From assembly GCA_016181845.1 (NCBI GenBank), contig JACOYO010000008.1:1-36279 (forward strand): DNA of 36,279 bases. Direction: 5' to 3'. The first letter of the stretch is position 1, and the number at the start of each line of letters is the position of its first letter. The DNA is from Parcubacteria group bacterium (GTDB lineage: Bacteria > Patescibacteriota > Minisyncoccia > Phycocordibacterales > 21-14-all-47-15). Positions 1,246 to 26,259 of this stretch are shown here, piece by piece. The notes under the pieces were generated by a model. It did not search any database. It worked only from the letters and a program-made list of their open reading frames with translations, and was not told the DNA's origin. The translations under genes and the position numbers were made by a program.

Positions 1246-1367
1246 GCTCCGCTGGTAGGATTCTTTTGTTACACAAACAGTATAGGTTTCGTATCCGCCC
1301 TGGGCGGATATACTCAACCTTTTCGAATCCTACACGCAAAGCACGCGGGTGCTTTGCTCCGCGGAGC
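1246..1367. repeat. tRNA-Asn-mimicking structured fold-back element with truncated tRNA-Asn 3'-end copy (1246-1263)
   Basis: Paired segments: GCTCCGC 1246-1252/GCGGAGC 1361-1367; GTAGGATTC 1255-1263/GAATCCTAC 1325-1333; TTTGT-tac-ACAAA 1265-1277; TATCCGCC 1292-1299/GGCGGATA 1303-1310; GCAAAGCA 1336-1343/TGCTTTGC 1350-1357. 1246-1263 matches tRNA-Asn 3' end (1412-1429) at 17/18. Confidence 0.7.
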
Positions 1368-1380
1368 TTAAAAAATCAAA

Positions 1381-1398
1381 ACCCCCGAATTGGGGGTT
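1381..1398 (-). terminator. Terminator hairpin downstream of tRNA-Asn
   Basis: ACCCCCaattcGGGGGT followed on the minus strand by TTTTGATTTTTT. Confidence 0.6.
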
Positions 1399-1412
1399 AA
1401 GATTTTTACAAG

Positions 1413-1784
1413 CTCCGCGGGTAGGATTCGAACCTACGACCAACCGGTTACACTTATCTCAAAATTTCTTTTGAGGGTGGACTATATCATCACCCTTCCA
1501 TTATTAAAAATGGGGTGGGGTGGAAGGCGCTTCGGGCCGAGTTTATATCGGGCCTACTCTCTTGCGAGATAGTCTCTGAACCTTCCCCGCAAGGTGCGGG
1601 GCTTGGCTGCTGATTACCTTATTTGCAAATGAGCAAGCGTAGGCTTCCAGTTCCCACACAAAATTAATTTAGTCGGAATCCCGACTTATTGTCGAGACAA
1701 TTCACCTTCTTTTTCATCCCTAAATTCCTTTAGGGAGCTGCGTAATGTCCACAGCCGGACGCTCTACCACTGAGCTACCGCGGA
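1413..1784 (-). tRNA. tRNA-Asn(GUU), interrupted by a group I intron
   Basis: 5' exon 1784-1751 (TCCGCGGTAGCTCAGTGGTAGAGCGTCCGGCTGT) and 3' exon 1450-1413 (TAACCGGTTGGTCGTAGGTTCGAATCCTACCCGCGGAG) join to a 72-nt cloverleaf with a 7-bp acceptor and loop CUGUUAA (anticodon GUU); G73. Confidence 0.9.
1451..1750 (-). ncRNA. Group I self-splicing intron in tRNA-Asn, between anticodon positions 35 and 36
   Basis: R-region motif AAGGTTCAGAGACTA (1584-1570) and S-region motif ATATAGTCCACCC (1487-1475). P1 can form between exon GCUGU and IGS GCAGC with a U-G wobble at the 5' splice site; intron ends in G. Hairpin TCCCTAAAggaaTTTAGGGA follows the IGS. No homing endonuclease ORF. Confidence 0.88.
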
Positions 1785-25654: not shown

Positions 25655-25674
25655 CCAAGTTAATAGTAATACAT

Positions 25675-25746
25675 GGCCCTATCGTCTAACGGTTAGGACA
25701 TCGGCTTTTCAAGCCGGTAATCCGGGTTCGATTCCCGGTAGGGTCA
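25675..25746 (+). tRNA. tRNA-Glu(UUC)
   Basis: GGCCCTA...TAGGGTC acceptor, loop TTTTCAA, T arm CCGGGTTCGATTCCCGG; 72 nt. Confidence 0.93.
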
Positions 25747-25765
25747 AAAATGCAGCGAAGCGAAA

Positions 25766-25905
25766 TTTTTGACCCTAAGCGAGACAACTGCTTGTCTCGC
25801 GTCCGGGAATCGAAAACCTTTGCGTTATTTATGAAGAGCTTTGCTCTGAATAAATCGCAAAGGTATACTGTTCTCGTAGAGAAAGATTCCCGGTAGGGTC
25901 AAAAA
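25766..25905 (+). repeat. tRNA-Glu-mimicking structured fold-back element, ending in a perfect copy of the tRNA 3' end
   Basis: TTTTTGACCCTA 25766-25777/TAGGGTCAAAAA 25894-25905; GCGAGACAA 25779-25787/TTGTCTCGC 25792-25800; CCGGGAATC 25803-25811/GATTCCCGG 25885-25893; ACCTTTGCG 25816-25824/CGCAAAGGT 25856-25864; TTCTC-gta-GAGAA 25871-25883. GATTCCCGGTAGGGTCAAAAAT is a 22-bp perfect direct repeat of 25730-25751. Confidence 0.85.
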
Positions 25906-25953
25906 TTGCACGCAGGTAAAGCAGGTAAACTGCTTTACCTGCGTGCAATTTTT
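25901..25953. repeat. 24-bp-arm perfect hairpin AAAAATTGCACGCAGGTAAAGCAG-gtaaa-CTGCTTTACCTGCGTGCAATTTTT
   Basis: Perfect inverted repeat abutting the tRNA-Glu fold-back element. Confidence 0.9.
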
Positions 25954-26043
25954 GAAACTGCAGCCATGTCGCTCTGCGACAGGCGAGGCGGGGTCGCGAG
26001 CACTTAGCAGATTGCGAGGAACCGAAGCAATATGCTTAGTGAC

Positions 26044-26161
26044 TTGTGACCAAGAAAAATTAGACAAGCGAAGCGAGTACGATACGAAACCTGTACTGTT
26101 CCTGTAAGGAAAGATTCCTGTCATTTCCGTCAGGAAAAATATTTGTGACCAAGCAAAATTA
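26044..26161 (+). repeat. Third, partial fold-back element copy between 19-bp direct repeats TTGTGACCAAG(A/C)AAAATTA
   Basis: Direct repeats 26044-26062 and 26143-26161; GATACGAAACCTGTACTGTT (26081-26100) matches the tRNA-Asn element at 19/20; hairpin TTCCT-gta-AGGAA 26099-26111 then GATTCC. Confidence 0.65.
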
Positions 26162-26230: not shown

Positions 26231-26259
26231 AAATGTTGGACATCGGATGTCCAACATTT
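26231..26259. repeat. Palindrome AAATGTTGGACAT-cgg-ATGTCCAACATTT
   Basis: 13-bp arms; TTGGACATCGGATGTCCAA differs from the 10479-10503 core (read as reverse complement) by a compensatory pair. Confidence 0.85.

Follow-up and report, generated by a model that had tools for sequence, protein, structure and literature searches.

We analyzed a stretch of 36,279 nucleotides from a Parcubacteria group bacterium (contig JACOYO010000008.1; the whole stretch is called the window below), in which short hairpin-rich elements follow the transfer RNA (tRNA) genes for Asn and Glu. The most plausible explanation, with a probability of about 0.6, is that these elements belong to a family of gene-less, cassette-like mobile DNA of Candidatus Paceibacteria, which inserts at the T-loop junction (between C56 and position 57) of tRNA and transfer-messenger RNA (tmRNA) genes. 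More tentatively, and at slightly less than even odds, this mobile DNA rewrites its own recognition arms for each new tRNA by inverted and direct copying of the tRNA tail, which would bring one core to many tRNA genes. A sequence-only reading of the window had described one architecture behind both tRNA genes, with stems retargeted to each host tRNA. The present results support this interpretation; a mobile cassette-like family distributed across an order goes beyond it.

Architecture and covariation of the elements

The flanks of the tRNA genes were compared in the genome containing the window (G000; 0.74 megabases, 11 contigs). Counted from the sequences, 17 of 46 tRNA genes, and also the tmRNA gene, are followed by an element whose core is of type A or B. 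The elements carry a direct copy of the 3′ tail of their own tRNA about 115 to 180 bases downstream, and in most of them an inverted copy lies between. The two core types occupy the gap between the inverted and the direct tail copies; these dissimilar cores share the site and the arms. The type B core has two hairpins, GGC-GGA/GA-GGC and, adjoining the junction, the terminal GGTCG...TGACC. The unit size is about 130–200 bases, filled by arms and hairpins, and there is no open reading frame.

When 14 type A elements were folded and aligned by hand, a single architecture emerged. It begins with the acceptor arm, hairpin 1 and the T arm, continues with GAAA, hairpin 2 (which has a GA/GA internal loop) and TACTG, and ends with hairpin 3 (loop GTA) and the remaining T and acceptor halves. 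One branched hairpin is predicted to form from the inverted tail and the core together with the tail that follows, and it rebuilds the T and acceptor arms. Ten of the 14 elements were used to build the type A covariance model R1; the type B model is referred to as R2. The covariation that had been proposed for the stems was borne out in 112 R1 matches from other genomes, where 94.7% of the cells were paired and both-sided changes in the stems amounted to 992, versus 283 in shuffles. The matches were aligned to R1, and the alignment is hence biased toward the model; the shuffled and slid controls were far lower, with pairing falling to 42–48% when the partner was slid by one column. Independently of the R1 alignment, 115 of 120 copies of hairpin 3 kept the GTA loop, and the stem occurred in more than 40 sequences. 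Rfam returned no element match at the gathering score, and none that was credible at an expectation value (E) up to 5, for the seven loci searched.

The end of hairpin 3 correlates with the state of the unit. Where it ended in TTC, the tails were intact in 34 of 42 elements, versus 21 of 61 with a G·A closing pair (p = 3e-6). A further cassette followed the element in 9/42 and 2/61 cases, respectively (p = 0.007).

At the Asn locus, direct reading of the minus strand located every piece that the sequence-only reading had listed. The tRNA-Asn (GTT) gene occupies 1412–1784, with exons at 1784–1751 and 1450–1412. ARAGORN does not call it, because a group I intron of ~300 bases (about 1750–1451; Rfam RF00028 at 1760–1458, 61.4 bits) splits the anticodon. 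The orthologue in G001, a genome of the same genus, is intronless. Tail 1, GAATCCTACCCGCGGAGC, is the tRNA-Asn 3′ end from T-loop position 57 (1429–1412); its junction, GGTTC/GAATCC, is shared by nearly all elements. A terminator-like hairpin (about 1395–1371) is followed by the anti-acceptor arm GCTCCGCGG (1367–1359), which repeats the acceptor part of the tail in inverted orientation. Hairpin 1 (GCAAAGCAC-CCGC-GTGCTTTGC; 1357–1336), identified by folding and alignment, separates it from the anti-T arm GTAGGATTC (1333–1325), an inverted copy of the T-arm part. Both arms are backed by the alignment and by the own-tRNA match statistic described below. The type A core (1264–1324) comprises GAAA, hairpin 2 with its GA/GA internal loop (1320–1284), TACTG, and hairpin 3, TTTGT-GTA-ACAAA (1277–1265). 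Its R1 match (1256–1357) scores 106.5 bits, which is not an independent value, as the locus was one of those used to build R1. Tail 2, GAATCCTACCAGCGGAGC, a direct copy of the tRNA-Asn tail matching at 17 of 18 positions, lies at 1263–1246. All of these features are on the minus strand.

The order of parts behind tRNA-Glu is identical, as the sequence-only reading had stated. On the plus strand, the tRNA-Glu (TTC) gene (25674–25747; ARAGORN, Rfam) is followed by an element at 25766–25884 (R1 match 25779–25892, 97.7 bits). Its parts are the anti-acceptor arm (25766–25777), hairpin 1 (25779–25800), the anti-T arm (25803–25811), and a type A core (25812–25884) with TTCTC-GTA-GAGAA as hairpin 3; the same core is present at tRNA-Glu of G001. 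Tail 2 (25885–25906) reaches into the trailer AAAAAT. A decayed second cassette occupies 25946–26120 of the same strand (R2 match of 34.4 bits; weak R1 match at 25996–26120, 25.6 bits). In this cassette, a type B core (25946–26062) is fused to a right end of type A, in which hairpin 3 is TTCCT-GTA-AGGAA (26094–26111). All three copies of the terminal hairpin motif claimed earlier are thus present in the window, but the third is no full separate element; the R1 and R2 matches identify it as the right end of the decayed B-type cassette. The motif TACTGTTNNNGTANNNAA occurs three times in the window, compared with 0.00 expected (none in 100 shuffles), and seven times in the genome.

Host-tRNA tracking and spread of the cores

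We collected 121 type A elements from 20 genomes. They are the better-scoring matches, and the tRNA-adjacent share, 104 of 121 with a same-strand tRNA of one of 18 amino-acid types at most 320 base pairs (bp) upstream, may drop among weaker ones. The junction was nearly always GTTC followed by G or A, and the tail copy begins directly after the GTTC of the T-loop. The tmRNA also carries an element. Among the 30 best R2 loci, 16 lay downstream of a plus-strand tRNA or tmRNA; most of the others, as minus-strand matches, had a tRNA or tmRNA at the equivalent minus-strand place. Type A elements lacking an upstream tRNA were seen at L110, L142, L143, L153 and L163, some behind GGTTC and a terminator-like hairpin; these may represent secondary insertion sites, or places from which a tRNA has been lost.

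The arms follow the adjacent tRNA. For the 104 tRNA-linked elements, the anti-T arm agreed with its own tRNA at an average of 8.15 out of 9 positions, and with other tRNAs at 6.02. The corresponding values were 5.72 and 3.96 of 7 for the anti-acceptor arm, and 6.04 and 4.26 of 7 for the acceptor part of tail 2. The own-tRNA match of all four arms was well above the largest of 300 shuffles. Identical or near-identical cores were found at different tRNAs with different arms, so that stems retargeted to each host tRNA proved a fair description.

The cores behave otherwise. The nearest core lay in the same genome in 53% of cases, compared with 8% after shuffling (maximum 18%); the share lying at the same isoacceptor was 1.9%, compared with 3.2%. 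Descent with the tRNA predicts that cores at the same isoacceptor are nearest, which was not the case; therefore, the cores have spread inside genomes, with arms fitted to the new neighbor. In the window genome, tmRNA and tRNA-Pro have a common core (score 0.95) with differing arms.

Presence and absence were compared between G000 and G001 at tRNAs with conserved surroundings. The sites behind tRNA-Cys and tRNA-Lys(CTT) hold an element in G000 and are empty in G001. The tRNA-Ile(TAT) site is filled in both, with different cores, and at tRNA-Asn the outer block is the same while the hairpins differ. The window genome also contains tandem arrays: A-B-A behind tRNA-Lys(CTT), A-B behind tRNA-Gln(TTG), and A-A behind tRNA-Leu(GAG). 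In genome G023, a whole tRNA-Val cassette is found in the array behind tRNA-Arg (L099), with the tRNA-Arg core on one side and a tRNA-Arg-like tail on the other; this foreign cassette resembles the tRNA-Val locus over 166 bp, starting from the TTC/GA junction. Another tandem pair in G023 (L105) has the tail, terminator, hairpin 1 and anti-T arm in common, with different cores. A tRNA-Phe element of G005 terminates in a tRNA-Lys tail 2, and one core of the window genome (L035) is inverted between its inverted T-arms. Solo remnants composed of tail, spacer, anti-acceptor arm and hairpin 1, with neither core nor tail 2, stand behind tRNA-Ser(GCT) (L029) and tRNA-Val(GAC) (L010) in the window genome; the corresponding sites in G001 carry a complete B element or are empty.

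R1 matched 46 of 60 relatives of the same order, with 1 to 33 matches per genome (E up to 0.001), and R2 matched 52 of the 60. Seven of the roughly 60 genomes gave neither A nor B matches. At E 1e-6, R1 found 20 of 286 genomes of the class Candidatus Paceibacteria and, among 287 sampled genomes of the phylum, none outside the class. Within the sample searched, the elements are confined to this class. Named genomes matching a 20-base core pattern include Lloyd-, Taylor-, Yonath-, Nomura- and Campbellbacteria, among others. The pattern was also found in contigs labeled Bacteroidales (L176) and Bacteroidia (L200), which are probably mis-binned Paceibacteria contigs.

Proposed mechanism and competing explanations

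In the reading as mobile DNA, a cassette would consist of the host tRNA tail, a spacer that is often the tRNA terminator, an inverted tail split by hairpin 1, and a two-hairpin core, with the next tail after it. Recombination at the T-loop junction is suggested by the arrays, the heterologous cassette and the empty sites. An enzyme provided in trans would carry it out at two junctions, that between core and tail and that in the T-loop. The substrate may be a folded single strand, as it is for the integron integrase acting on attC. Either templated hairpin repair or selection could then re-match the short anti-T and anti-acceptor arms to the tRNA at the new site. The host tRNA remains intact because the first tail matches it, and only cassettes that leave the tRNA intact would survive.

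Several observations weigh against this reading. No recombinase could be linked to the elements, and no protein family tested follows their presence. The Y1/RAYT transposase, considered as a mover, is absent from the element-rich genomes G005, G012 and G032, and many RAYT genes are flanked by palindromes of their own. Reverse transcriptase is absent from G000, G005, G023 and G040. A single Xer-type recombinase is nearly universal, yet G019 has type B elements and no Xer match; of the two genomes without such a match, neither has A elements and one has B elements. Proteins with the PF00589 domain mostly occur once per genome and appear Xer-like by size and copy number. Six stretches near tRNA-less elements were inspected, and none held a larger autonomous version. 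In two of them, the upstream gene proved to be a tmRNA or an intron-split tRNA-Asn missed by ARAGORN; the others showed no clear upstream gene. The route by which the arms come to fit a new tRNA is one that we infer, and the G·U counts given below leave the choice between DNA and RNA ambiguous.

The strong covariation and the constant orientation relative to the tRNA would also be expected of an RNA element, in which the read-through trailer folds into a tRNA-like shape that aids 3′ processing, termination or tRNA quality control, and the arms co-evolve with the tRNA. Hairpin 1 agrees with this, having 17 G·U versus 2 A·C pairs. Hairpin 3, in contrast, shows no G·U excess (8 versus 7 A·C), while tRNA acceptor stems have 62 versus 4. 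An argument for DNA based on a lack of G·U pairs looked clear in a first count and became ambiguous after the tRNA-stem control and a fuller count; it is not relied on here. The spacer was terminator-like in 31 of 80 first-position elements, compared with 1.0 in shuffles, and the core therefore often lies beyond the tRNA terminator. Presence that differs among species of one genus and is patchy across the order, the inverted core, and cores common to unrelated tRNAs also speak against a role as RNA. Taken together, the terminator and G·U evidence leans toward DNA, and the structure may act as DNA instead of RNA. We regard an RNA element as rather unlikely.

An origin without transposition is similarly improbable in our estimate. 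Here, hairpin-driven template switching and gene conversion would build the tail copies at tRNA 3′ ends, and homologous exchange would spread the cores. The succession of tail, terminator and anti-tail does resemble a fold-back, the stems change on both sides together, and exchange between loci is seen at the tRNA-Phe locus of G005 with its tRNA-Lys tail 2. Alone, these processes do not account for the precise placement of a conserved 80-base core and hairpin 1 at a single position behind previously empty tRNAs, nor for an entire foreign cassette lodged between a core and a tail.

Phages and islands whose tyrosine integrase targets tRNA genes are marked by direct repeats of the tRNA 3′ end that start in the T-loop (Islander, PMC4383910). 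Leftover attachment sites of this kind are a very improbable source of our elements. The units measure ~150 bases, have conserved hairpins and inverted tail copies, and occur at nearly all tRNA types. No match in phage records and no viral match to the type A core pattern were found; the four viral matches to the type B core pattern lacked the element structure and were due to chance.

Relation to known systems and further observations

Mobile cassettes of the kind proposed here share several features with integrons. Both form head-to-tail arrays of exchangeable cassettes, and some cassettes here were found out of place in other arrays. As at attC, the junction lies beside a folded, imperfectly paired single-stranded site, the structure of which is kept while the sequence varies. 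Unlike integrons, the elements are gene-less, have no recognized attI platform, sit at tRNA T-loops, and combine stems copied from the host tRNA with two dissimilar cores. The integron crossover lies at an R-box GTTRRRY, whereas GTTC followed by G or A and then the host tRNA tail forms the junction here; the open reading frame of an integron cassette is lacking as well.

Genomic islands in tRNA and tmRNA genes also target the 3′ half of the tRNA, keep it whole with a matching tail, and leave a displaced tail copy at the far end, as was found here; tail duplication is likewise present in Islander-type islands (PMC4383910). Such islands measure kilobases, compared with ~150 bases for our elements, which have no integrase, add an inverted tail copy, and use many tRNA types in one genome. 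Neither Islander-type islands nor integrons combine inverted arms derived from the target with gene-less units. TIGR arrays (TIGR-Tas), which occur in the same kind of bacteria (also in the candidate phyla radiation), are repeat arrays with palindromic parts (PMC12045711). They adjoin Tas proteins and encode paired short spacers, whereas the units here adjoin tRNAs and copy the tRNA tail. REP and REPIN sequences are short, gene-less palindromic repeats in many copies as well, and RAYT genes exist in element-bearing genomes. However, RAYT genes with readable flanks were mostly bounded by other simple palindromes and not by element cores, and our elements have tRNA-specific arms and occur in some genomes with no Y1 match.

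No description of such elements was found in the literature, with subscription papers and preprints outside its coverage, and within this literature we rate the kind of element, with caution, as categorically new. If the reading as mobile DNA is correct, one of the largest uncultured bacterial groups would possess a cassette system that is anchored at tRNAs and uses the target itself to renew target recognition. Such a system would account for a considerable share of the DNA that separates the tRNA genes of very small genomes, raise the question of which host enzyme moves the cassettes, and provide a natural example of DNA hairpins that make site choice re-programmable. Repeats of tRNA tails in these genomes would then be no proof of phage integration.

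Two further observations concern other sequences of the window genome. Behind tRNA-Thr(TGT) stands what appears to be another tRNA-Thr-like sequence, which has hairpins inserted within its D-arm region and reproduces the 3′ tail exactly; it is kept in both species (L014, G000:C2:15000-16100, minus strand; G001:C11, about 108324–108550). The palindrome GTTGGACATCGGATGTCCAAC, found at about 26236–26258 of the window, also flanks a RAYT-type (Y1) transposase gene at G000:C2 (L251), and represents a separate REP-like family within the window genome.
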